64,000 nucleotides of DNA from Pontibacter sp. Tf4. Its GTDB lineage: Bacteria > Bacteroidota > Bacteroidia > Cytophagales > Hymenobacteraceae. This document shows, in pieces, positions 37-12,826 of this stretch (positions are counted from its first letter, which is position 1; each line of letters starts with the position of its first letter). The notes below the pieces were generated by a model. The model was not told the origin of the DNA, did no database searches, and saw only the letters and a list, made by a program, of their open reading frames with translations. The stretch covers positions 62,001-126,000 of the forward strand of contig NZ_JACKZC010000003.1 of assembly GCF_014212495.1 (NCBI RefSeq), given 5' to 3'. The translations under genes were made by a program, and so were the position numbers.

Positions 37-399
37 ATGAGATACTACCTGCTGTTATTTGTAAGCCTTACGCTACTGCTCTTCATGATGCCGAAGAACG
101 ATAGTTTGCGCAGCTTTGCACAGCAATCGACGCTGAAAAAAGGTTGTACATACAGCAGGCATTTTGGCAAAAAGCCTTGTGCCAAAAAATGCCTGAAACA
201 CCAGGCGCACTCCGGTCAGCAAAGCAACGCAGCAGGTATAGTTATTGATTGCAGCCAGCAGGTATACGCCATCGTTAACGAGCTGCCTTCAGAGCTTTTT
301 ATCTCTTTTGTGTCACCCTACAAATTTACAATTCCGCACATCCGGAAGCATCTTGCTCCTGTGCTGGAGTACGACCCTGAGCCGCCCCGAATTTCTTAA
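37..399 (+). CDS. small exported protein, PPR(I/L)S tail family
   Basis: A 120-residue protein of unknown function. Residues 4-20 are hydrophobic and look like a signal peptide or membrane anchor. The rest is basic, with cysteines at 37, 48, 52 and 72. It ends in D-P-E-P-P-R-I-S. A second protein at 6995-7381 has the same start (M-K/R-H/Y-Y-L), the same length and nearly the same tail, so the two look like paralogues bracketing the sulfur-compound genes. It lies 144 bp upstream of the DoxX-DsrE gene on the same strand. I do not recognise a domain. Export is inferred from the N-terminus; the role is unknown. Confidence 0.65.
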   Translation: MRYYLLLFVSLTLLLFMMPKNDSLRSFAQQSTLKKGCTYSRHFGKKPCAKKCLKHQAHSGQQSNAAGIVIDCSQQVYAIVNELPSELFISFVSPYKFTIPHIRKHLAPVLEYDPEPPRIS

Positions 400-543: not shown

Positions 544-1428
544 ATGGAAACTACTCCAAAACAAAAAATATCATTCCTGGTGCTGCGTAGCCTGGGCAGT
601 CTTATCTTTATTATGGCTGGTACAAGCCACTTTGTAAAAACTGCCGGTGCAGCTGCCCGGTTAGAAAAGGCGCCGTTCGCTCACTTGGCCACCTGGATGG
701 CATCAGCTGAAACCCTTATCTTACTTTCAGGAGCAGGTTTGCTTATTGGTGGCTTTATGCTGCTGGCAGGCTTTAAAACTAAGCTGGCTTCTGCCGGATT
801 ACTGGCTATCCTTATACCGATTACGCTGACCGTACAGGTAGGCAGCGGAGACTATGGGCCTTTGTTCAAGAATGTGGCGCTGATAGGTTTGCTCATCTTT
901 TTTATCATAAACGGCGCTGTGTACCATAGTATAGATTCGTTTCTGGAACAGAAAAAGAGAATTATTCCTTTGCCTGCACGAAATAAGGGCTATGTACCTA
1001 TAGTAGTTATTGGGCTGATGGTATTGCTTGGTTCCTGCGCCACGACAAATGCTCAAAATACTATGAATCAGCGTATGACCCATACTACCGCCAGTACAAA
1101 GTATGCAGTACTCATCAGCCAGCCAAATCACTTAAAAGCTGCTGTAAATACCGCTGAGACAATTACCAAAGACAGCAAGTATAACCGTGATTCGTTTGTA
1201 GTGATGGCCTGCGGAAAGTCGGTAGAAGCCTTTAAAAAAGACGGTGCGATGGCTGCAGAGATAGCCAAAGGCAGAGCCGCCGGGGTTACCTACATACTGT
1301 GCGGCATGTCGCTGAAGCAGTTCAATATTGCCCTATCCGATCTTATAGATGGTGTAGAGATCACACCCAATGGCCTAACTTATATGTTTGACCTTAAGCA
1401 AAAAGGCTATACGACTGTGGAACTTTAG
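544..1428 (+). CDS. DoxX-like membrane protein fused to a DsrE-like domain
   Basis: Residues 10-130 form four hydrophobic segments typical of DoxX-family membrane proteins, which in thiosulfate:quinone oxidoreductases are membrane subunits. A fifth hydrophobic stretch (151-164) ends in L-L-G-S-C and looks like a lipoprotein signal embedded inside the protein. It is followed by a DsrE/DsrF-like domain (about 184-294) with the cysteine expected to carry sulfane sulfur in ...ILCGMS (Cys253). No stop or frame change separates the two parts. The DsrE part should be periplasmic if the segment is an anchor. The next genes, a TlpA thioredoxin and a second DsrE protein, support a sulfur-transfer role. 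The specific reaction is inferred. Confidence 0.8.
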   Translation: METTPKQKISFLVLRSLGSLIFIMAGTSHFVKTAGAAARLEKAPFAHLATWMASAETLILLSGAGLLIGGFMLLAGFKTKLASAGLLAILIPITLTVQVGSGDYGPLFKNVALIGLLIFFIINGAVYHSIDSFLEQKKRIIPLPARNKGYVPIVVIGLMVLLGSCATTNAQNTMNQRMTHTTASTKYAVLISQPNHLKAAVNTAETITKDSKYNRDSFVVMACGKSVEAFKKDGAMAAEIAKGRAAGVTYILCGMSLKQFNIALSDLIDGVEITPNGLTYMFDLKQKGYTTVEL

Positions 1429-1483
1429 TCACATAACACCTTAAAAGATTGGGTTAATTTAGCTTCATTAACAAACTAACAGC

Positions 1484-2119
1484 ATGAATAAGAAGAAATT
1501 TTCAATAAAAGATATACCGGGCTGGGCGGTAATGCTCGCCGTTTTCGGAATTTTATATTTCACTGGGTTGCATACCGAAGCTATTGGCCAAGTGCAGCGT
1601 ATATTGCTGGCCACAGGTATTAAAAATGCCGATGTACCGGAAACCTTACAGAACCCGGACGCTACCGCAGTAGTAGATGCGGCTGCCGTGGCGAATACTG
1701 AAATGGCCGGAGCCGGTTTCAAAATTGTGGATCTGCAGGGCAAACAAGTAGCTTTTGAGATTCTGAAAGGAAAAGTCATATTCCTAAACATCTGGGCTAC
1801 CTGGTGCCCGCCCTGCATTGCCGAAATGCCAAACATTCAGAAGCTTTACGACAAGGTAGGCTCAGACAAAATTGCCTTTGTGATGCTGTCTGTAGATGAA
1901 GGCGGCATGGAGAAGGTGAAGAAGTTTATCGATAAGAAAAAGTACACATTCCCGGTATACATGCCGGCCAGCCAGTTCCCGCAGGAGTTCTACTCTAACG
2001 CCATACCTACTACCTTCATCATTTCACCGGAAGGTAAGATCGTGGCCAAGCAGGAAGGCATGGCTGATTATGACACCCCTGAAGTAGTAGCGTTCCTGCA
2101 GGGGATGGTGAAAAAGTAA
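1484..2119 (+). CDS. TlpA-family membrane-anchored thioredoxin
   Basis: A 211-residue protein with one N-terminal membrane segment (about 14-28), a variable Ala-rich linker and a thioredoxin fold from about residue 78. The redox motif W-C-P-P-C lies at 107-111 and the cis-proline region is A-I-P-T-T near 175. Proteins of this TlpA/ResA type reduce disulfides or maintain cysteines outside the cytoplasmic membrane. Here the likely clients are the cysteines of the neighbouring DsrE domains or the haem-binding sites of the dihaem cytochrome; that is inference from position. It follows the DoxX-DsrE gene by 55 bp on the same strand and is probably in its operon. Confidence 0.88.
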   Translation: MNKKKFSIKDIPGWAVMLAVFGILYFTGLHTEAIGQVQRILLATGIKNADVPETLQNPDATAVVDAAAVANTEMAGAGFKIVDLQGKQVAFEILKGKVIFLNIWATWCPPCIAEMPNIQKLYDKVGSDKIAFVMLSVDEGGMEKVKKFIDKKKYTFPVYMPASQFPQEFYSNAIPTTFIISPEGKIVAKQEGMADYDTPEVVAFLQGMVKK

Positions 2120-2126
2120 TATCTTT

Positions 2127-2165
2127 CCATATACATAGTTTACGAGAAGTGAACTATGTATATGG
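2127..2165. other. perfect 14-bp hairpin between tlpA-like and dsrE-like genes
   Basis: CCATATACATAGTT (2127-2140) is repeated exactly in inverted form at 2152-2165, with an 11-base loop. No T-run follows, so it is not a standard terminator. It lies 8 bp after the thioredoxin stop, within an apparent operon, and could protect the upstream mRNA 3' end or bind a regulator. Confidence 0.6.
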
Positions 2166-2243
2166 CTTACAATTAGTTGAACAAAAAGGGCTTCGCATCC
2201 AACTTAGTTAAATTGTCTAATCATATACTTAAACAAGCAAATT

Positions 2244-2690
2244 ATGAAATTGAAACTGATCATGATGGTGCTGGTGGCTACGCTGGTAGCGCCCCTACCT
2301 ATGGCCCAGGCACAAACAAAGTCAAAAGCTAAAAAAACGGAACAAACATCGCAGCGCAAGATTGTATACGATCTATCGGTAGCTGACACCACCATGCATG
2401 CCGGCTTGATGAGACAACTCAACAATATTAAACGCGGCTGGCCTGATGCACAAATAGAAGTGGTGGTTCACGGCAAAGCGCTTAACCTGTTGGTTACTGG
2501 TAAATCAACTCAGGCCAACGCCATAAAAGAGCTACAGGCCAAAGGGGTAGTTTTTGCTGCTTGCGAGAATACGATGAAAAGAGCTAAAGTAGAAAAGAGC
2601 CAGCTGTTGCCGAATGTACCTACCGTGCCAATGGGCATAGGTGAAATCGTAACTAAACAGGAAGAAGGCTGGAGTTACATTAAGTTTTAG
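2244..2690 (+). CDS. exported DsrE-family protein
   Basis: A 148-residue protein with a clear signal peptide (cleavage near A-Q-A-Q, residue 24) and a DsrE/DsrF-like fold. The hallmark cysteine is Cys107 in ...FAACENT, aligning with Cys253 of the DoxX-DsrE fusion. DsrE-like proteins carry persulfide sulfur between enzymes; an exported version would act in the periplasm. It sits between the thioredoxin and a membrane hydroxylase on the same strand. Function as a sulfur carrier is inferred from family and context. Confidence 0.75.
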   Translation: MKLKLIMMVLVATLVAPLPMAQAQTKSKAKKTEQTSQRKIVYDLSVADTTMHAGLMRQLNNIKRGWPDAQIEVVVHGKALNLLVTGKSTQANAIKELQAKGVVFAACENTMKRAKVEKSQLLPNVPTVPMGIGEIVTKQEEGWSYIKF

Positions 2691-2710
2691 AAACTATAGA
2701 AGTATAGCTA

Positions 2711-3634
2711 TTGGCAAAATACTGGCAGATTTTCGTCTCGTCTTTTACGGATTACGGGAACTACCTTTTCCGTGAAGTTCTTAATCCGGGTTGGGGTAAC
2801 TATTTCTACTGGCTGATCGGCTTATCGCTTTTCTTCTGGCTTTTAGAAATAGTTAAGCCCTGGCGTGCCCAACAGGCTATACTCCGAAAGGATTTCTGGC
2901 TCGATGGCTTCTACATGTTCTTCAATTTCTTCTTGTTTTCGCTTATCGGGTTCAATGCCATTTCTAACATTGGTGTAGAAGCTTTCAATGATTTCCTGTC
3001 CTTGTTTGGCATTACCAACCTGGTAGCTTTTGAAGTGCAGTCGTGGCCCGTGTGGGCGCAGCTGCTCACTTTATTTATAGTCCGTGATTTTATACAATGG
3101 AACGTACACCGGCTACTGCACCGCTCCGAATTTCTGTGGCGCTTTCACAAGGTACACCATTCGGTGCAACAAATGGGCTTTGCGGCGCACCTGCGCTTCC
3201 ATTGGGGCGAAACTATAGTGTACAGAACAATAGAGTACATCCCACTGGCCATGATAGGTTTTGGTATTCAGGACTTCTTTCTGGTGCACATTCTTGCGAC
3301 TTCTATTGGCCATTTCAACCATTCCAACATAAACGTTCCGTTAGGTCCGTTGCGCTACCTGTTTAATAATCCGCAAATGCACATCTGGCACCACGCCAGG
3401 TATATGCCCCGTCGTTATGGCGCAAACTATGGCATCAGCTTAAGTGTTTGGGATTACCTGTTTGGTACAGCTTATATGCCCGAAGATGGACGTGATATTG
3501 CACTTGGGTTCGATGATGTAGAGCAATATCCGGAGTCGTTTGTAAATCAACAGTTACATCCATTCCTGAACAATCGCTCAAACGGTGAGTTAGGTATAAC
3601 ACAAGAAGAAGTAAAACACCTGGAAAAAGTATAA
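2711..3634 (+). CDS. sterol desaturase / fatty acid hydroxylase family protein
   Basis: A 307-residue integral membrane protein with a TTG start 20 bp after the DsrE gene. It has about four hydrophobic spans and the histidine clusters of the di-iron fatty-acid-hydroxylase superfamily: H-R-L-L-H, H-K-V-H-H and H-I-W-H-H. These enzymes insert oxygen into or desaturate lipid chains at the membrane face. The substrate cannot be read from the sequence. Its position at the end of a run of sulfur-type genes is unexplained and may be incidental. It ends just before a strong bidirectional terminator. Confidence 0.85.
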   Translation: MAKYWQIFVSSFTDYGNYLFREVLNPGWGNYFYWLIGLSLFFWLLEIVKPWRAQQAILRKDFWLDGFYMFFNFFLFSLIGFNAISNIGVEAFNDFLSLFGITNLVAFEVQSWPVWAQLLTLFIVRDFIQWNVHRLLHRSEFLWRFHKVHHSVQQMGFAAHLRFHWGETIVYRTIEYIPLAMIGFGIQDFFLVHILATSIGHFNHSNINVPLGPLRYLFNNPQMHIWHHARYMPRRYGANYGISLSVWDYLFGTAYMPEDGRDIALGFDDVEQYPESFVNQQLHPFLNNRSNGELGITQEEVKHLEKV

Positions 3635-3651
3635 GAGGTTGTGCTTTCAGG

Positions 3652-3699
3652 CAAACTAAAAGTCCCGTAGTAGAGATTTACCACAGGACTTTTAGTTTG
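3652..3699. terminator. bidirectional terminator between convergent genes
   Basis: A perfect 14-bp inverted repeat: CAAACTAAAAGTCC (3652-3665) and its complement (3686-3699). It lies between the ends of the hydroxylase and nucleotidase genes, with A/T-rich stem ends that supply U-runs in both directions. Confidence 0.8.
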
Positions 3700-3714
3700 A
3701 TATGTAGTTTATAC

Positions 3715-5337
3715 TTAGCGTTTGATGGTCACTTCGCCCATATTAGCTGGCATGTCTACTGTCTTCATTTCCTTTAACTTCTGAATGAGGAATTCGGTTA
3801 ATGGTTGCGCTGTTCTGTTGATGTTTCGCCCTTTGCCTATCTCATCGAAGTTATGCAGTCCGGTTAGTAAGCCGTTGTGGGTGACAACCTGGTAATTCTG
3901 TGTATCTTCTACTGGCTGACTTTTTATTTGTACGTTGCTAACTCGTTCTCCGACTGGCTTGGTAAGATCCATTTCATAGCGGATTCCAGCTGTCTGGATA
4001 AGACCACCTACCGCTTCTAGTTTGTTATCCGGCTTTAAATTTTTTGCCGCCTGCTCCAGAGTTGATTTCAACTGCTTTCCTGTCATGGTCAAGGTTACGA
4101 TTTTAGATGGGTGTGGCAACAGCTTGTATATTTCTTCACTTGTGACAGGACCAGGCTTTAAAGAGATACCATATCCTACTCCCGGCATAACAGCTATGTC
4201 TCCATGAAAGCTTTCTATTAGCAGATTACCTACCAGCTTATCAAACGGACTTTCAGATTTATACTGTCTGCCGATGACTGCCTTGCTTTCCACCACATAT
4301 TCCTGTAGCTTTTCCAGGTGTGGTCTGCGCTGTTCGTCAATCAGCTCCTGCATGGCTGCATCAGGCTGCACCTGCTCGTTCCAGAGCCAATGATGATGCG
4401 TTTTCACATCAATCAGTTTTTGGTTCCTTAGTACCAGTTCTGTTTCACCTAACACCGCTGCATCTGACATAGCCTGTACCACATAGGTCTGCCCTATCTT
4501 CTTTCTTGGTTCCAGTATGTCGTGGCTATGGGCTCCTATGATCAGGTCTATACCTGCTACTTCACGCGCCATTTTGTAATCCACAGCCGTTCCTTCATGT
4601 GAAAGCACCACCACTACATCGGCTTTTTTTCGGAGCTCAGGTACATAGGTTTGCGCGACTTCCTGCCCTACTTTAAAGGTAAGTCCCTTCACATTATCCG
4701 GATTACCGGTCTTAGGTGTATTGCGGTAACCAAGAGCCAGAATAGCCACCTTCACACCATTCTTCTCCTTGATGATGTAAGGCTCTCCGAAAACAGGCTG
4801 CAGCGTGTTGTCATCCGTTATATTGGCTGCCCGCATCGGAAAGGTTGCCAGTTGCTCCAGCTCGCGCGTGCGCTGCAAACCATAATCGAAATCATGGTTT
4901 CCGAGGGCCATCAAATCATATTTCACCGCATTCATGAAACGGATCATGGCTTCACCTTTGGTTAGGTTGCCTAGTTGGTCGTCACTAAATGTATCGCCGC
5001 CATCTACCAGCAACACCTTATCTGCCCCCTTCTCATTTCGCACCTTATTAATAGCGGTAGCCAGGTAAGCAAAGCCCCCTATCGTGGCTGTTTTATCGAA
5101 TGTTATAAGTGTATCGCGACCAGCGTCGCCAGTTTGGGCTGTCGCATTATCCGTTGTCGTCAGGAAAGGCATATAAGAACCGTGCATGTCATTGGTATGC
5201 AAAATGCTGATTGATTTATGCTCTTTTACTGCCATTTCACTTGCAGCCGTTGCTGCTGGGTTTGAGTTTGTACAGGCGCCCGCAAGTATAAGCGGCGCCA
5301 TCATAAAGGTTACTCCCAAATGCATACTAATCTTCAT
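3715..5337 (-). CDS. 5'-nucleotidase family lipoprotein (canonical metallophosphatase)
   Basis: About 540 residues. I chose the start at 5337 because it directly precedes a lipoprotein signal with lipobox L-A-G-A-C; the frame is open further upstream, to 5397. The calcineurin-like domain has every expected metal and catalytic motif: HTNDMHG, DGGD, GNHDFD, SHEG and GAHSHD. A C-terminal nucleotidase domain follows from about residue 350. Family members hydrolyse 5'-nucleotides or UDP-sugars outside the cytoplasm. It is the last gene of a leftward set with the YeiH exporter and rhodanese. SoxB belongs to the same superfamily, but the GNHD motif here favours ordinary phosphoesterase activity. Confidence 0.9.
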   Translation of the reverse strand: MKISMHLGVTFMMAPLILAGACTNSNPAATAASEMAVKEHKSISILHTNDMHGSYMPFLTTTDNATAQTGDAGRDTLITFDKTATIGGFAYLATAINKVRNEKGADKVLLVDGGDTFSDDQLGNLTKGEAMIRFMNAVKYDLMALGNHDFDYGLQRTRELEQLATFPMRAANITDDNTLQPVFGEPYIIKEKNGVKVAILALGYRNTPKTGNPDNVKGLTFKVGQEVAQTYVPELRKKADVVVVLSHEGTAVDYKMAREVAGIDLIIGAHSHDILEPRKKIGQTYVVQAMSDAAVLGETELVLRNQKLIDVKTHHHWLWNEQVQPDAAMQELIDEQRRPHLEKLQEYVVESKAVIGRQYKSESPFDKLVGNLLIESFHGDIAVMPGVGYGISLKPGPVTSEEIYKLLPHPSKIVTLTMTGKQLKSTLEQAAKNLKPDNKLEAVGGLIQTAGIRYEMDLTKPVGERVSNVQIKSQPVEDTQNYQVVTHNGLLTGLHNFDEIGKGRNINRTAQPLTEFLIQKLKEMKTVDMPANMGEVTIKR

Positions 5338-5499
5338 CGTACTAAAGTTTAATTGGTGAGATTTATACAGCCGTGAACGTGCCCAGCAGGTCTGCACGGA
5401 CTGGTGAATACTTCCCCAGATATTGCTTTATAGCTTCGATAGCCTTTATACCTGCGTCGGCGCGGTGGTCGGCATTCTTTTCAAAAACATACTGCTCTT

Positions 5500-6438
5500 T
5501 TAAGCCACATAGTAAACTGCCAGCAGAGAGCCTGTAGCCACAACCAGCCAAAGCACCACTCCTTGTAGGAATGGCCTGATACTAATGGTTCTGAGCAGCG
5601 ACATGCTGATGCCTGCACCAGTTAAAAATAAACTGATAACCAAACCTTTTCTGGCCAGCATGGTCAGCCAGCCATACACTTCGCTCAGGCCACTTAGAAA
5701 CGTGCTGAATAGAGATGCTACCAAGAAGAAAAGTATGAACTTCGGGAAGCTTGCCTTGCCTTCCGACTTAAAAAGAAAGCCCGTAATCAATACCATCGGG
5801 AGTATCCACAGCGCCCGCGTGAGTTTAAGCGTAGTGGCAATCTCGAGTGCCTTTTCTCCAAACTCCGTGGCAGCCCCTACTACAGAACTGGTATCATGTA
5901 TGGCAATAGCGGCCCAAACACCAAATTGCTCTTGCGATAGTTGTAGCTGATTGCCGATGAACGGGAAAACAAACAAGGCTAGCGCATTCAAGATGAACAC
6001 CACACCCAGCGCTACGGAAATCTCCTTTTCTGATGCTTTGATAGCCGGGGCAACGGCGGCAATGGCACTTCCCCCACAAATAGCCGTACCGGCAGAAATA
6101 AGGTGATTCAGCTTTTTCTCAACGCCTAACAGTTTCGCCAATAGTAAACCGACCACCATAGTGGCAATAAGCGAAATGGCCGTATAGAAGAAGCCTGTAA
6201 AGCCGGTTTCAGCTACTTGGTACAGGTTAATGCCGAAGCCCAACCCTACTACAGAAGCCTGCAATGCGTACTTAGTAACCTTGCTCAGTTTTGCCGGATA
6301 AGGGTTACCAAAAATCAGTCCTAATACTATACCAGAGAATAAAGCAAGCGGCGCACCAATAAGGTCTGTTAATACAATAAGTATCAATATGAGCCAGAAA
6401 AAGCCCAGTTGAACATATCTTTTGCTTAAAATCTCCAC
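5500..6438 (-). CDS. YeiH/UPF0324-family putative sulfate or sulfite exporter
   Basis: A 312-residue protein of about nine to ten membrane spans with the conserved G-T-A-I-C-G-G-S-A-I-A-A motif of the YeiH (Cons_hypoth698) family. Members have been linked to export of oxidised sulfur anions, though most are uncharacterised. The start lies 3 bp after the stop of the rhodanese gene, so the two are surely co-transcribed. With a sulfane-sulfur-handling partner and a nearby thiosulfate-dehydrogenase-like cytochrome, export of sulfite or sulfate is a reasonable inference. Confidence 0.85.
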   Translation of the reverse strand: MEILSKRYVQLGFFWLILILIVLTDLIGAPLALFSGIVLGLIFGNPYPAKLSKVTKYALQASVVGLGFGINLYQVAETGFTGFFYTAISLIATMVVGLLLAKLLGVEKKLNHLISAGTAICGGSAIAAVAPAIKASEKEISVALGVVFILNALALFVFPFIGNQLQLSQEQFGVWAAIAIHDTSSVVGAATEFGEKALEIATTLKLTRALWILPMVLITGFLFKSEGKASFPKFILFFLVASLFSTFLSGLSEVYGWLTMLARKGLVISLFLTGAGISMSLLRTISIRPFLQGVVLWLVVATGSLLAVYYVA

Positions 6439-6441
6439 AGT

Positions 6442-6840
6442 TTATTTTGTTTCTATCCCTGCCGATTTGAGCGCATCAAATCCTACAGTTGCGTTGTAGA
6501 TGTTATTGAAGTTGTTGTTTTTCATTACTGTTGTTGCTTTACTACTTCTATTCCCGGATTTACAGTACAACAGGTAGGTGGCGGCTGTATCCAGTTTAGC
6601 TATTTCCTTTTCAAAATCCGGTGAAGTATAGTCTATATTAACAGCGCCTTCCAGGTGGCCTTCCTGAAATTCATACGGTGTGCGTACATCCAGCACCACC
6701 ACTTCTTGACTAGATTCAATTAATTGCTTTACTTCAGTTGCATTTAAATTTACTTTTGTACTGCCTGCTTCTTGCTGGCAACTGCTAAATCCAAAAAGAA
6801 GCATAAAGGCAATTAGTTTTACTACATAGTTCATATCCAT
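6442..6840 (-). CDS. rhodanese-domain lipoprotein
   Basis: A 132-residue protein with a lipoprotein signal (lipobox F-S-S-C, Cys21) and one rhodanese domain. The active-site loop is C-K-S-G-N-R-S with catalytic Cys93, and the CDC25-like D-V-R-T-P-Y-E-F motif lies at 51-58. Rhodaneses move sulfane sulfur from thiosulfate or persulfides to acceptors. The lipobox predicts a periplasmic or outer-membrane location. It leads the leftward operon with the YeiH exporter. A CRP-type palindrome lies 64 bp upstream of the start, in the divergent promoter region. Confidence 0.9.
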   Translation of the reverse strand: MDMNYVVKLIAFMLLFGFSSCQQEAGSTKVNLNATEVKQLIESSQEVVVLDVRTPYEFQEGHLEGAVNIDYTSPDFEKEIAKLDTAATYLLYCKSGNRSSKATTVMKNNNFNNIYNATVGFDALKSAGIETK

Positions 6841-6903
6841 AGTTCAATTTTAAACTTTTAATAATTCTATAGTTTGCAAGTTCAAACATTGCGGCCTGAA
6901 CCT

Positions 6904-6921
6904 ATGTGACAAAAGTCACTG
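6904..6921. promoter_or_regulatory. CRP/FNR-type palindrome, copy 1
   Basis: TGTGACAAAAGTCACT lies between the divergent rhodanese (start 6840) and small-protein (start 6995) genes. It fits TGTGA-N6-TCAC(A) and matches the 9329-9346 site over 16 consecutive bases. A CRP/FNR-family regulator is the likely ligand; none is encoded in the window. Confidence 0.65.
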
Positions 6922-6994
6922 TTAGCCAAAAGTCGTTTCACTTGTTTTGTAAAATATCACAGCAGAACGTCGTTATAAACTATAAAACCACTAC

Positions 6995-7381
6995 TTGAAA
7001 CACTACCTGCACATATGGGCCATTTTGATGTTAATCCTACATCTTGGGGTGCTGACCATCATCAGCTTCGTGCCAGGAGAACGTGCGGGTGTCTCTATCA
7101 AAAAGGTTTGTCTGAGGAAAGAAGTCCAAAAGCAGTTAGTGGCATCAGTTCATAAAGCCACATTTCAAAATCAGCTGCTAAACAAAGTGCCAGATACAGA
7201 AAACGGCCAGCAAGATGGAGCTGTTGAGATACATTGTTCTGTAAAACTGATAAGCACGGCACCCACTGATGAATTCGTGTTTGTGCCACTGAATCTGGAA
7301 GACCAAAAATCCGGTCACAATCAAATGAGTTACTACTCTCTTAGCAAATTCTTAGAGCCTGACCCGCCCCGGCTTAGCTAG
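6995..7381 (+). CDS. small exported protein, PPR(I/L)S tail family
   Basis: A 128-residue protein with a TTG start and a hydrophobic N-terminus (residues 6-27). It ends in P-D-P-P-R-L-S and resembles the product of 37-399 in start, length and tail. There are cysteines at 39 and 76. No domain is recognised. It lies 74 bp downstream of the CRP-type palindrome and upstream of the SoxB-like gene. Having one copy at each end of the DoxX-to-rhodanese block suggests a shared, perhaps sensory or metal-related role, but nothing in the sequence proves it. Confidence 0.6.
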   Translation: MKHYLHIWAILMLILHLGVLTIISFVPGERAGVSIKKVCLRKEVQKQLVASVHKATFQNQLLNKVPDTENGQQDGAVEIHCSVKLISTAPTDEFVFVPLNLEDQKSGHNQMSYYSLSKFLEPDPPRLS

Positions 7382-7586
7382 TCACTTTCCCTATTTAGTG
7401 GCAAACACAGGTAAAGTATATTCTTGGGTTTGCTACGTCTAACTGCACCCTTCCTGCTCCTTTTAGAACATCCTTTCAAATTATGAGCTTGAAGCCACGG
7501 TGTGCCTATTAAAAATCCATTTACCAGAGTATAGATAAACCTATTCTGTTTAGGCTTATCCCTTACACCTATTTTACTAAAGTAAT

Positions 7587-9239
7587 ATGAAGCTTAACTT
7601 CAAAAGATTTATACTTTCTACCCTGCCTGTCATTGGACTTGCTGCATTTAGCTCCTGCCAGACCACAGGAAAGGTTGAAACCACAGCCAGCAACGATGGT
7701 GTTGAAACCATTACCATCTTACAGACAGCCGACATCCATGGGCAGCTGATGCCCCACCAGGAGATGTTTGTAGAGAATGGCAAGTTTGTATTTAAAGAGC
7801 GTGGCGGTATGGCCCACATACAGACACTCTTTAAGCAGGTAAAGGCAGAAAATCCGGGAGGTACCGTTATCGTTGACGGCGGCGACCTGATACAGGGAAG
7901 CGCCGTTGCCGCCATGTCGGAAGGAGATGCCATTGCCCCAGTTATCAAAGCAATGGACTATGATTTCCTTATTCCGGGTAATTGGGAAGTAATTTTCGGC
8001 AGCCAGAAAATGCGAAGTATACTGGAATCCTATGGCAAGCCGGTAGTATGCGCCAACATCTATGATGAGTCTACTTCAGCCATGCTTTACCCACCGTACA
8101 TCATCAAAGAAATGAAAGGTGTAAAGCTGGGTTTTATCTCCTACAACGACCCGGAAGTACCGGTACGCCAAAACCCGGTATTCAGCAAAGGACTTATCTT
8201 TAAAGGTCTGGAAGATAACCTGCAACCCCTGATTAAAGAGCTGAAAGAAGAAAAAGGTGTGGACATCCTGTTCCTGGTAACGCACCTGGGAATTTCCAAA
8301 CAGATATACCTGGCTGATCAGCCTGAGATTGAAGGCGTGGACTTTGTACTGGGCAACGATACACACGAGCGAATCCGAAAGCCGCTGAAGCGCAAGTATG
8401 CACAGGTAGTAGAACCTGGCGGATTTGGTTCTTTTGTTGGTCGCCTGGACCTGCAGGTGAAAGACGGTAAAATAGTAAACCAGAACTATGAACTGATTGA
8501 TGTAGACCCAAAGAAATATCCGGCAGACCCAGTAGTGCAGAAAATAGTAGATGAACAGCTGGCGCCCTATAAAGCGCAGATGAGTCGCGTGCTGGGCTAT
8601 ACCACAGAGCCCTTGTACCGCTACCTGGTGGTGGAAAATGCTTTGGATAACATGATTACCGACGCGGTTCGCTGGAAGACAGGTGCAGACATTGCTATTT
8701 CAAATGGATTCCGTTTCGGAACTCCGATTGTACCGGACGCTTCGGGTAAAGCGCCCATCACCTACAGCGACATCTGGAACATGCTGCCCGTGAACGAGAA
8801 CGTGAAAACAGGCAAGGCTACCGGCCAGCAGATAAAGGACTGGATGGAACAGGAACTGCATAACGTATTTGCAGAGAAGCCATTAGAGCGTTTTGGGGGT
8901 TGGGTAATCCGTTTTTCCGGAATGGAGTTAACCTTCAAAGCCAATGCCCCTAAAGGGGAACGTGTGCAGTCGATCACGGTTGGTAGTAAGCCTCTTGACC
9001 TAAAGAAGGAATACACCATGGCTGCCTGCCGCAGAACCGGTGAACCAGACCATGTGCTGTGCCGCATGCCGAACGCCAAAGACCCGAAAGTACTGGACTA
9101 TACAGTGCACGATGTGATGGAAGAGTACCTGAAAAAGAAGGGCACAGTATCTCCAAAAATAGACGGAAGAGCCAAAGTGCTGGACCTGGAATCGCCGGTA
9201 CTTTCTCAGCTACCAAACGTGGATTATACTTTCAGATAA
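7587..9239 (+). CDS. SoxB-like metallophosphoesterase lipoprotein with altered active site
   Basis: A 550-residue lipoprotein (lipobox F-S-S-C, Cys24) of the 5'-nucleotidase/SoxB superfamily. Metal-ligand motifs are present as D49-I-H51, GGD100, N132 and H233. The catalytic G-N-H-D/E is G-N-W-E (Trp133), and the G-H-S-H motif is N-D258-T-H260. SoxB thiosulfohydrolases also carry Trp at the catalytic-His position (G-H-W-E). That resemblance and the TsdA-like neighbour suggest a sulfur substrate rather than nucleotides. The C-terminal 5'-nucleotidase domain begins near residue 335. A strong terminator follows. Whether it hydrolyses sulfonate or phosphate esters is open. Confidence 0.8.
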   Translation: MKLNFKRFILSTLPVIGLAAFSSCQTTGKVETTASNDGVETITILQTADIHGQLMPHQEMFVENGKFVFKERGGMAHIQTLFKQVKAENPGGTVIVDGGDLIQGSAVAAMSEGDAIAPVIKAMDYDFLIPGNWEVIFGSQKMRSILESYGKPVVCANIYDESTSAMLYPPYIIKEMKGVKLGFISYNDPEVPVRQNPVFSKGLIFKGLEDNLQPLIKELKEEKGVDILFLVTHLGISKQIYLADQPEIEGVDFVLGNDTHERIRKPLKRKYAQVVEPGGFGSFVGRLDLQVKDGKIVNQNYELIDVDPKKYPADPVVQKIVDEQLAPYKAQMSRVLGYTTEPLYRYLVVENALDNMITDAVRWKTGADIAISNGFRFGTPIVPDASGKAPITYSDIWNMLPVNENVKTGKATGQQIKDWMEQELHNVFAEKPLERFGGWVIRFSGMELTFKANAPKGERVQSITVGSKPLDLKKEYTMAACRRTGEPDHVLCRMPNAKDPKVLDYTVHDVMEEYLKKKGTVSPKIDGRAKVLDLESPVLSQLPNVDYTFR

Positions 9240-9261
9240 TAGTTTAGTGTTTGTGTTTCTA

Positions 9262-9296
9262 AAAGCAGGAAGTATAAACTTCCTGCTTTTTTTATG
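9262..9296 (+). terminator. rho-independent terminator after the SoxB-like gene
   Basis: AAAGCAGGAAGT and its complement ACTTCCTGCTTT form a 12-bp stem, followed by a seven-T run, 23 bp after the stop codon. Confidence 0.85.
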
Positions 9297-9328
9297 ATCA
9301 ACAGACAATTTTTTTTATGAAACACATC

Positions 9329-9346
9329 ATGTGACAAAAGTCACAT
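9329..9346. promoter_or_regulatory. CRP/FNR-type palindrome, copy 2
   Basis: ATGTGACAAAAGTCACAT is a perfect dyad (7-bp arms, 4-base spacer) fitting TGTGA-N6-TCACA. It lies 54 bp before the ATG of the dihaem cytochrome gene, a plausible activator position, and matches the 6904-6921 site. Confidence 0.7.
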
Positions 9347-9400
9347 ACACTTTAATAGGTATAAGCTAGCTTGTACTTCTATTCACTTTATACTACCATT

Positions 9401-10459
9401 ATGAAAAATAATCAGGAACAAGACTTTGGCAGTCTGCTAATTAAGTTTTCAAACTTAATAGGCTTAAGTGCCCTTACTACAATTCTACTTCTGTTTATCG
9501 TAGTGATTTTCCGAGTTTCACCGACTCATACGTTTTTACCGGATTTGAGCCATATGTTTCAAGACAGTGCATCAGATGAAGTTCCTGAAACTATAGTAGA
9601 AGATGAGATGTGGAAAGCCCCTGATCTGGCATCACTACCTGCCACACCCGAAGGTGATCAGATAAAATATGGGCACGAGCTGGTAAAAAATACGGCGCAA
9701 TATCTTGGTCCTGAAGGTAGTGTACTACATATATCGAACGGAATGAACTGCCAGAACTGCCACCTGGATGCAGGAACAAAGCCCTTTGGTAATAACTATG
9801 CGTTAGTAGCGTCTACCTATCCTAAAGTTAGGGCAAGATCCGGAATGGAAGAAGATGTAACGAAGCGTGTAACTGACTGCTTTGAACGTAGTTTGAACGG
9901 AACCGCACCTGATAAAGACTCTAAAGAAATGCAGGCAATGGTTGCTTACATCCAATGGGTTGGAAAAGATGTGAAAAAGGGAGATAAAGTGAAAGGCTCT
10001 GGTTTGATTAATATTGAAATGTTAGACCGTGCAGCCAGTCCGGAATTAGGCAAGGCAATATACATACAGAAATGCCAGGTATGCCACGGTACAGAAGGCG
10101 AAGGCATGAAACCAGAAGGAAGTGCCGTGTATGTTTACCCACCACTATGGGGCGGAAATAGCTACAACGATGGTGCTGGTTTATACCGCATTTCTAATTT
10201 TGCAAAATATGTGAAGGCTAATATGCCTTTAGGGGCAACGTATGATAAGCCACAGTTATCTGATGAAGAAGCCTGGGATATAGCTGCCTTTGTAAACTCA
10301 AAGCCAAGACCGACTAAAGACATCAGCAATGATTGGCCTGATATATCAAAGAAGCCTTTTGACCATCCTTTTGGGCCTTTTACTGATAACTTTTCGGAGC
10401 ATCAACATAAATACGGACCATTTAAGGCAATCATAGAAGTTAAAAGCAGATCAAAGTAA
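9401..10459 (+). CDS. tsdA: TsdA-like dihaem cytochrome c (thiosulfate dehydrogenase type)
   Basis: A 352-residue protein with one N-terminal membrane anchor (about 15-37). It has two haem c motifs, C-Q-N-C-H (117-121) and C-Q-V-C-H (225-229). Between them lies D-C160-F-E-R-S-L-N-G. In TsdA enzymes a cysteine at this place, about 40 residues after the first haem motif, is the unusual axial ligand of the catalytic haem. Met275 in N-M-P-L-G could ligate haem 2. TsdA couples two thiosulfates to tetrathionate, or the reverse. The ATG at 9401 is preferred over an upstream in-frame TTG at 9371 because it gives a normal anchor. A CRP-type site lies just upstream. Confidence 0.82.
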   Translation: MKNNQEQDFGSLLIKFSNLIGLSALTTILLLFIVVIFRVSPTHTFLPDLSHMFQDSASDEVPETIVEDEMWKAPDLASLPATPEGDQIKYGHELVKNTAQYLGPEGSVLHISNGMNCQNCHLDAGTKPFGNNYALVASTYPKVRARSGMEEDVTKRVTDCFERSLNGTAPDKDSKEMQAMVAYIQWVGKDVKKGDKVKGSGLINIEMLDRAASPELGKAIYIQKCQVCHGTEGEGMKPEGSAVYVYPPLWGGNSYNDGAGLYRISNFAKYVKANMPLGATYDKPQLSDEEAWDIAAFVNSKPRPTKDISNDWPDISKKPFDHPFGPFTDNFSEHQHKYGPFKAIIEVKSRSK

Positions 10460-12032: not shown

Positions 12033-12186
12033 AGTTTTTATATTTTTTGATAATAGATTCCCAAGTATACCTGCTCCCGACAGACCCGGTTTTACAGATT
12101 TCTGGATAATTTTTATAGATAATCTCAAGGCGATCAAACGGCTGACTACCCACTGTTTTATACTTTACCCAGGCTGTGCCGTATAG

Positions 12187-12197
12187 AGGGTAACCCT
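12187..12197. promoter_or_regulatory. candidate operator before the HMA-AraC regulator
   Basis: AGGGT-A-ACCCT is a perfect palindrome 26 bp before the regulator's ATG, in the region divergent from the copper-storage gene. It could be an autoregulatory or copper-responsive site; no second copy was seen. Confidence 0.35.
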
Positions 12198-12223
12198 TTG
12201 CAGAACAATCATACGCATGAACA

Positions 12224-12826
12224 ATGGATAAAAAGGACTGTGAACAGGTGCAGGAGTTGCATATAAAAAACATGGTGTGCCCCAGGTGCATAAAGGTTGT
12301 GCAGGACGAACTGGTAAGGATCGGAGTGAAGGTTATTGAGGTGGAACTGGGATGTGCAATAGTCTGTGTGCCAGACGTGGAGACTTTTAAAAGTATAACA
12401 GCCGCCCTGGAAGCCTTTGGTTTCGAACTGCTGCAAGACAAAAGAGCAACGTTAGTAGAGCAGATAAAACTGCTGATTCTCGATCTCATCCATCAGAACA
12501 AGCTTCCCCAACTGCAAACCACTATCTCTACTTACCTGGCCGACGAGTTACACAAAGACTATGGCACCCTTAGCACCACCTTCAAAGAGCTGGAAGAATT
12601 ACCCCTGAGCAGATACGTGATACTCCAGAAGATAGAGCGTGCAAAGGAGTTGCTGGAGTACAAGGAGCAGAACGTAAGCGAGGTGGCCAGCCTGTTAGGG
12701 TACAAAAGTATACAGCATTTCTCCGCCCAGTTTAAAGAGGTAACCGGCTATACACCATTGCAGTACCGCAACCAGGAAATTCACCTCAGGGTACCGCTTA
12801 CTGACGTGATAGAGCTTGGAGCTTAA
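12224..12826 (+). CDS. HMA-like domain fused to an AraC-type regulator (probable copper sensor)
   Basis: A 200-residue protein. Residues 10-75 resemble a heavy-metal-associated domain with the metal motif M-V-C19-P-R-C22. Residues 85-195 form an AraC-type DNA-binding region with two helix-turn-helix units (E-V-A-S-L-L-G-Y-K-S-I-Q-H-F-S). This architecture suggests direct Cu(I) sensing through the HMA part, an inference from domain order. It is divergent from the Csp gene and near the SPW/VKOR and CopB genes. Its stop codon overlaps that of the convergent glycosidase gene by 4 bp. Confidence 0.85.
   Translation: MDKKDCEQVQELHIKNMVCPRCIKVVQDELVRIGVKVIEVELGCAIVCVPDVETFKSITAALEAFGFELLQDKRATLVEQIKLLILDLIHQNKLPQLQTTISTYLADELHKDYGTLSTTFKELEELPLSRYVILQKIERAKELLEYKEQNVSEVASLLGYKSIQHFSAQFKEVTGYTPLQYRNQEIHLRVPLTDVIELGA

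Follow-up and report, generated by a model that had tools for sequence, protein, structure and literature searches.

The question raised by this locus is how a compact group of sulfur genes is controlled, and in response to which signal. The genes lie at the beginning of a stretch of 64,000 nucleotides from Pontibacter sp. Tf4 (the window), which corresponds to positions 62001-126000 of contig C17 in a genome of 4.45 Mb; the window edge cuts the sulfur locus. A first-pass annotation of the window had described a sulfur-oxidation-type gene cluster and merely mentioned palindromes shared between its genes. These palindromes are the most informative part of the locus. We consider it probable that the genes constitute a sulfane-sulfur/thiosulfate regulon, which is switched on by a locally encoded activator of the Crp/Fnr family whose gene lies in the same locus upstream of the window (Table 1).

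Palindromes are placed at a fixed distance from a promoter box

The palindromes at 6905 and 9330 are real and share the pattern TGTGAC-N4-GTCACA, i.e. TGTGA-N6-TCACA. On its own, TGTGACNNNNGTCACA has nine matches in the genome when one mismatch is allowed (reversed control pattern: five), eight of them on contig C17: six in this locus and two in a second module, with the remaining one on another contig. The second module is a shorter copy of the core at C17:129005-135324 and has its own regulator, which is 78% identical. When the palindrome is combined with a box of the type TAnnTTTG at a fixed distance, 10 matches with at most three mismatches are found in the 28-kb locus, whereas 40 shuffles averaged 0.025 matches and never exceeded 1. 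At up to two mismatches all nine composite elements of the genome lie within its two sulfur loci. The element precedes the units for persulfide dioxygenase, TauE, rhodanese-YeeE, TrxB-regulator, sm2-SoxB2 and TsdA.

We determined the spacing in 38 regulator loci, two from this genome and 36 out of 60 genomes of the same family, taken as stretches of up to 20 kb each (own locus 28 kb; 739,760 bases in total). At most one mismatch from the palindrome, 55 sites were detected, and ten rearranged palindromes gave between 0 and 2 sites each. An exact TAnnTTTG is located 21 nt downstream of 33 of the 55 sites, and the remaining offsets between 0 and 45 gave none; allowing one mismatch, 47 sites have the box at offset 21. 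The rates at random positions are 0.095% for exact boxes and 1.3% with up to one mismatch. Across 87 loci (the 38 family loci, 40 phylum-level regions of about 20 kb and 9 named ones) the pattern NGTNAC-N4-GTNACN followed by an exact box within offsets 12-30 showed the same preference: 85 cases at offset 21, two at 22 and one at 12. Of the seven sites in the own locus, two have an exact box and five a box that deviates by one or two letters.

TGTGA-N6-TCACA is the textbook half-site and spacing of E. coli CRP, and class II activation by CRP takes place from a site centred at -41.5. The -7 box of Bacteroidota sigma-A promoters, TAnnTTTG, was reported at -12 to -5 (PMC9723704); the 16-bp site would therefore span -49 to -34, with its centre at -41.5. 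As predicted from the spacing to the -7 box, the operator is at the class II activator position, and a dimer of the regulator would bind TGTGA-N6-TCACA as a class II activator.

The arrangement ahead of TsdA is common to relatives. From 21 TsdA hits with at least 45% identity we obtained 18 distinct upstream stretches containing the operator with at most two mismatches (identical stretches were removed; three hits got no separate row, namely two pieces in L071 and L142, the genome region also covered by L054; in rows L060 and L065 the site is more than 250 bp upstream). Nine of the 18 stretches have an equally spaced TAnnTTGY in place of the box. This is the box of motif SM5, which was put into a group of motifs whose most likely readers are alternative sigma factors (PMC9723704). 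SoxB2 or its neighbour sm2 is found behind the same operator in several genomes.

The predicted operator co-occurs with the regulator gene

In the 60 genomes the composite element with at most two mismatches was found at 114 places, a few of which are one palindrome read from both strands, compared to four places for the reversed pattern. For 96 of the 114 a regulator gene is found at a distance of no more than 26 kb, a limit that we chose ourselves and with a regulator list that takes in one broken fragment (G002). The element is present in 31 of 32 genomes with the regulator and in 3 of 28 without it; the genomes are related, so these counts are not independent. In one of the three exceptions, G037, a regulator gene is present nearby as a broken fragment, and the other two have only the TTTGAC-type element described below. 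The fragment in G037 (G037:C36:351325-353334) contains an in-frame stop, and two composite elements with two mismatches each are found within about 2 kb of it.

The regulator scores above the cut-offs of Pfam PF00027 (30.5 bits) and PF13545 (45.4 bits), and reaches 52.4 bits with the profile of cyclic AMP (cAMP)-responsive CRP, NF008732, below the cut-off of 266. It resembles CRP, FNR and CprK in its Crp helix-turn-helix domain, cyclic-nucleotide-binding fold and RE..R recognition helix, and CRP also in the TGTGA-N6-TCACA site at -41.5; it differs from CRP in that the cAMP loop is replaced by a CX5C motif invariant in this clade and that the regulon is local, not global. The recognition helix reads SREVISR and is near-invariant in the 38 family loci. 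A phylum-level search gave 63 regulator matches, 61 of them outside the own genome and 29 taken as small loci.

A change in the helix is accompanied by a change in the operator. In the 87 loci, half-sites in loci with an SRE helix have G in 96 and A in 14 cases, those in SRV loci have G in 4 and A in 42 cases plus one T and one C; SRV-helix loci carry TGTAAC sites where SRE loci have TGTGAC. In CprK, Val-192 in place of Glu-209 of FNR goes with T, not C, at the matching position (PMC2610375), the same pairing of an E-to-V with a G:C-to-A:T change. By analogy, the covariation is in the direction reported for FNR and CprK. About three changes of the helix residue are required on the tree, which rules out counting the covariation as many independent events; its independent support is therefore modest. 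Locus L241 (G146) has two regulators, one with a Glu and one with a Val helix, and both TGTGAC- and TGTAAC-type sites; it was classed 'EV' and left outside the per-locus helix tally.

The enzyme set is close to a known thiosulfate pathway

All genes named in the first-pass annotation were recovered at or inside 544-10459 as open reading frames (ORFs), to which we add a second SoxB-like gene, a SoxB3 remnant and a fatty-acid-hydroxylase gene. Upstream of the window the contig encodes two fusions of metallo-beta-lactamase and rhodanese domains (MBL/rhodanese, persulfide-dioxygenase type), the second of which matches structures 3tp9 and 3r2u best, and further single rhodaneses, a TrxB-like reductase, TauE and two half-size Sulf_transp (YeeE) proteins. 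The core is kept across the 38 regulator loci; short hit pieces in this survey (e.g. 6 of 28 for PDO1, 4 of 8 for TsdA) were not used as full proteins.

The TsdA-like cytochrome proposed earlier is well supported. It matches PDB entry 4wqc over residues 75-305 (E 1.5e-40) and has the heme motifs CQNCH (117-121) and CQVCH (225-229). C160 in DCFERSLNG aligns with the heme 1 Cys ligand in the TsdA structure chain and is kept in the own protein and in three of three full-length relatives (alignment of four sequences including our own). At the heme 2 position M275 is present, and the adjacent Lys is replaced by Asn274. Some TsdA proteins are known to lack this Lys. Compared with Allochromatium vinosum TsdA (PDB 4v2k, 4wq7), the protein shares the two CxxCH motifs, the heme 1 Cys ligand and the heme 2 MPLG, and differs by its membrane anchor, a C-terminal extension and the Asn beside Met. 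Together with the persulfide-dioxygenase/TauE/YeeE core outside the window, the TsdA match supports the earlier suggestion that the locus handles thiosulfate or sulfane sulfur.

We also searched the whole genome with family profiles for the classical Sox multienzyme system. SoxY and SoxZ gave no match, the SoxA profile found only TsdA (21 bits, cut-off 110), and the best SoxC score was 23.9 bits (cut-off 420). The classical system is rejected on these scores. The absence of SoxYZ, SoxA and SoxC holds at the level of family profiles and is not firm, because none of the control genomes scored above the cut-off with any of the four profiles, and with those for SoxY, SoxZ and SoxA the controls stayed silent. 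The first-pass annotation had seen no SoxAX, SoxYZ or SoxCD in the window; this now extends genome-wide for SoxYZ, SoxA and SoxC, while SoxX and SoxD were not searched.

Its further remark that the combination seems to match no named pathway is not borne out. TsdA, a SoxB-like protein and MBL/rhodanese dioxygenases correspond to the TsdA-SoxB-SdoA/SdoB thiosulfate pathway of Erythrobacter flavus 21-3, whose cluster was described with three SoxB-like proteins and without the Sox multienzyme complex (PMC7608252). As in E. flavus, TsdA and MBL/rhodanese sulfur dioxygenases (here two) are found in one cluster with several SoxB-like proteins near each other. For the SoxB that acts on tetrathionate in that pathway, the candidates in this genome are two divergent SoxB-like proteins. 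Judged from the published description rather than from sequence synteny, the present locus differs by the Crp/Fnr regulator and its operators, by the YeeE, TauE, YeiH, DoxX-DsrE and DsrE proteins in the cluster, and by the deletion of the most SoxB-like paralog. The enzyme set is close to the E. flavus pathway, and the metabolic idea is already known, because its authors list Bacteroidetes among the carriers of tsdA and soxB (PMC7608252).

As judged by homology, TsdA would couple thiosulfate to tetrathionate at the membrane, and the SoxB-like, DsrE and rhodanese proteins would split and relay sulfane sulfur. The YeeE proteins may import sulfane sulfur, the dioxygenases would form sulfite in the cytoplasm, and TauE and YeiH would export it. 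The YeiH-like protein scores 118 bits with TIGR00698, below the cut-off of 232.6. The Sulf_transp proteins resemble the YeeE-family importers SoxT/TsuA (PMC11582611) in their place beside sulfur-oxidation and regulator genes, and differ in being two half-size proteins far below the TsuA cut-off.

The membrane protein DoxX-DsrE is a recurrent neighbour of SoxB2. Its DoxX part is recognized by Pfam (30 bits), the DsrE part just misses the cut-off (22.6 versus 22.7 bits), and the predicted DsrE fold matches DsrE-type structures (Foldseek, 2pd2, E 3.5e-6); the model has a mean predicted local distance difference test score (pLDDT) of 72.8 and a predicted template modelling score (pTM) of 0.41 for the whole chain, the DsrE part being better. 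C223 and C253 are invariant in an alignment of 13 sequences. Among the best 80 of 160 named Bacteroidota SoxB2 relatives, the fetched stretch contains a DoxX-DsrE relative in 68 of 80 loci, in 57 of them within 1.5 kb of SoxB2 on the same strand. This adjacency in named loci suggests that SoxB2 and DoxX-DsrE cooperate more widely than at the own locus. A lipobox-like LGSC is located between the DoxX and DsrE halves (residues 160-166) with the Cys kept in 12 of the 13 sequences, as if the DsrE half had formerly been a separate lipoprotein.

An explanation that we hold quite possible, at somewhat less than even chances, is plain detoxification of sulfide or persulfide of the bigR or cst type with some extra genes and without useful energy gain; here the Crp/Fnr protein would merely replace BigR, and TsdA would be a tetrathionate reductase or a minor side enzyme. 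The core of dioxygenase/sulfurtransferase and TauE-type exporter is the content of the bigR operon of Xylella and Agrobacterium, which like the present locus has a local regulator with two cysteines, critical in BigR (PMC5823870). TsdA was detected in only 7 of the 38 regulator loci, most of which show the core without it; because the stretches span at most 20 kb (own locus 28 kb), a distant TsdA gene could be missed. On the other side stands the finding that TsdA, and in several genomes SoxB2 or sm2, are located behind the same operator and are therefore part of the predicted induced set. The regulators also differ: BigR, a winged-helix protein, represses from a site at -10 (PMC5823870), whereas a Crp/Fnr protein with predicted activator geometry is found here. 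An ArsR-family BigR is not in the core, where the regulator is the Crp/Fnr protein, and elsewhere in the genome no search for it was made; the two MBL/rhodanese enzymes miss the cut-off of the Blh profile NF040641 (45.9 and 61.6 bits, cut-off 625). For the regulon proposed here, the genes expected to be induced by sulfur include TsdA and, as unassigned partners, DoxX-DsrE, the small secreted proteins and the fatty-acid hydroxylase.

Two cysteines in place of the cAMP loop

The only cysteines of the own regulator are C80 and C86, within ACALSMMC. This CX5C motif is kept in all 38 family loci, and among 38 further aligned rows (own, 29 phylum-level and 8 named) the first Cys is present in 37 and both in 30; row L128 has a gap at the first position. 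Neither Cys occurs in nine of nine alignable Crp/Fnr paralogs (20 regions gave 11 matches, of which two fragments of 13 and 27 residues were dropped). In an alignment with the CRP chain the cysteine stretch falls on the cAMP-binding loop, which is not conserved; the cAMP contacts of CRP are residues 71, 72, 82, 83, 127 and 128 (PMC6603298). Cysteines are also found at both positions matching C80 and C86 in the Crp/Fnr structure 3dv8.

BigR, a sulfide sensor, works through two cysteines (PMC5823870). Since CX5C is conserved and lies on the cAMP loop, and BigR too uses two cysteines, a persulfide switch is plausible: C80 and C86, in the place of cAMP in CRP, may react with persulfide or polysulfide and thereby turn the regulator on. 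We give about even chances to the broader proposal that the CX5C branch of Bacteroidota Crp/Fnr proteins is an undescribed class of persulfide/polysulfide sensors acting as class II activators, with operator specificity switched between TGTGAC and TGTAAC through one helix residue. If true, an activator would carry out the sensing that in other phyla is left to repressors of the ArsR and CsoR types, and Crp/Fnr would be added to the families that sense persulfide, with a pocket chemistry new among them. In the open-access literature, outside of which most subscription journals lie, we found neither a described Crp/Fnr sulfur sensor nor a described sulfur sensor for Bacteroidota. The regulator, the operator/promoter architecture and the cysteine motif look new, none of them having been found described there, and together they form a testable scheme of how sulfane sulfur may be controlled in a large phylum.

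Crp/Fnr proteins elsewhere respond to oxygen, nitric oxide, CO or ligands. It is accordingly conceivable, if rather unlikely, that the two cysteines sense a non-sulfur signal such as oxygen, nitric oxide, disulfide stress or a metal, with the sulfur genes as one output. C80 and C86 could instead serve a cofactor, a metal or a redox signal of another kind: a CX5C motif might coordinate a metal or close into a simple disulfide, and in CprK a disulfide forms in air (PMC2610375). The confinement of all nine composite elements of the genome to the two sulfur loci argues against such a signal.

Observations that speak against the proposed regulon

The SoxB-like proteins provide several of the points that count against the proposed regulon. 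The assignment to SoxB made earlier was not borne out at the family level: with TIGR04486 (cut-off 550) SoxB1 scores 292.5 and SoxB2 293.3 bits, so that both are ruled out as members. We regard it as doubtful that they are ordinary periplasmic 5'-nucleotidases for phosphate scavenging with no role in sulfur metabolism, yet SoxB1 looks like one from its motifs (GNHD/GAHSH, not the SHWE/GHTH metal site of SoxB) and its best PDB match, nucleotidase 3ivd. Deletion of two of the three SoxB-like genes of E. flavus left sulfur formation unchanged (PMC7608252). SoxB2, whose GNWE and GNDTHE motifs are invariant in eight of eight aligned sequences, likewise departs from the SHWE/GHTH site and has lost one canonical metal-ligand His. 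It shares with SoxB the Trp where the catalytic His stood (GNWE versus SHWE), matches SoxB 2wdc best (E 2.5e-39) and adjoins DoxX-DsrE as given above, which speaks against a mere nucleotidase; its best named matches are from Pontibacter, Botryobacter and Rufibacter (very near records possibly left out). The most SoxB-like paralog, SoxB3, has AHWE/SSHTH and reaches 344.5 bits in relatives, also below 550. It is intact in L051, L054, L056 and L072 and deleted in the own genome, where the remnant is 70% identical to the end of L051 SoxB3.

On the regulatory side, the bare palindrome was rejected as significant: perfect places number 11 compared to 10 for the reversed pattern in the 60 genomes, the shorter GTGAC-N4-GTCAC gives 148 compared to 180 (hand sums from the same genomes' columns), and within the window the three sites with at most two mismatches are no more than chance, 26 of 100 shuffles being equal. 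The palindrome is significant only through its position and the fixed promoter spacing. Ten of the 11 perfect palindromes have a regulator gene no more than 17 kb away, and the other one is in G014, a genome that lacks the regulator (hand comparison). One of the 55 sites falls within a gene. Further points are the small number of helix changes on the tree and the tied G and A half-sites in seven SRE loci (L066, L068, L231-L233, L235 and L236). Six loci that the per-locus tally had entered as E with A in the majority are ties by these counts. A distant subgroup (6 of 29 phylum loci) has Gly instead of the second Cys, and Ser is found there once.

Finally, 18 of the 114 composite places are far from a regulator, nine of which represent a different element, TTTGAC-N4-GTCAAA; that a global CRP-like protein is the owner of the palindromes while the local regulator binds elsewhere, as these distant places and the textbook CRP pattern might suggest, we reject as very improbable, since the elements track and cluster near the regulator gene and the operator base shifts with its helix residue. 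The TTTGAC-type element is followed by an AGAAAGG-like sequence, has the same distance from TAnnTTTG and occurs in nine genomes of the same family outside the sulfur locus (e.g. G042:C3:456884, G022:C1:2224981, G017:C1:863642, G045:C145:1041826 and G057:C33:34603). It is perhaps the operator of another Crp/Fnr protein.

Features of the locus

Coordinates are collected in Table 1.

Table 1. Genes and operators of the sulfur locus (window positions unless a contig is given).
Feature	Position	Strand	Basis or remark
sm1, small secreted protein, tail ..DPEPPRIS	37..399	+	ORF; goes with the core module
DoxX membrane domain fused to periplasmic-type DsrE domain	544..1428	+	Pfam, alignment, Foldseek
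Weak operator and promoter element, 3 mismatches	1418..1462	+	ahead of thioredoxin gene
ResA/TlpA-type thioredoxin, membrane-anchored	1484..2119	+	Pfam Redoxin/AhpC-TSA
DsrE-family protein, N-terminal signal (from sequence)	2244..2690	+	Pfam DsrE 42 bits
Membrane protein, fatty-acid-hydroxylase family	2711..3634	+	Pfam FA_hydroxylase 102 bits
SoxB-like protein 1 (SoxB1), 5'-nucleotidase superfamily	3715..5337	-	nucleotidase-type GNHD motif
SoxB3 C-terminal remnant, 46 aa	5366..5503	-	between SoxB1 and YeiH-like gene
YeiH-family putative exporter	5500..6438	-	PF03601 178 bits
Rhodanese lipoprotein, single domain	6442..6840	-	Pfam Rhodanese 66 bits
Operator TGTGACAAAAGTCACT + 21 nt + TTGTTTTG	6905..6949	+	ahead of sm2-SoxB2
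sm2, small secreted protein, tail ..EPDPPRLS	6995..7381	+	ORF
SoxB-like protein 2 (SoxB2)	7587..9239	+	motifs GNWE and GNDTHE
Perfect operator TGTGACAAAAGTCACA + 21 nt + TAGCTTGT	9330..9374	+	ahead of TsdA
TsdA-type diheme cytochrome c, N-terminal membrane anchor (from sequence)	9401..10459	+	
Crp/Fnr regulator gene	C17:55815-56462		inside the locus, upstream of the window

The small proteins sm1 and sm2 have no match among NCBIfam profiles (Pfam was not tried). sm1 was found in 15 of the 38 loci, including both own loci. Tails resembling EPDPPRLS or DPEPPRIS recur in small secreted proteins encoded beside these operons, as also in L019 at 12111-12470.

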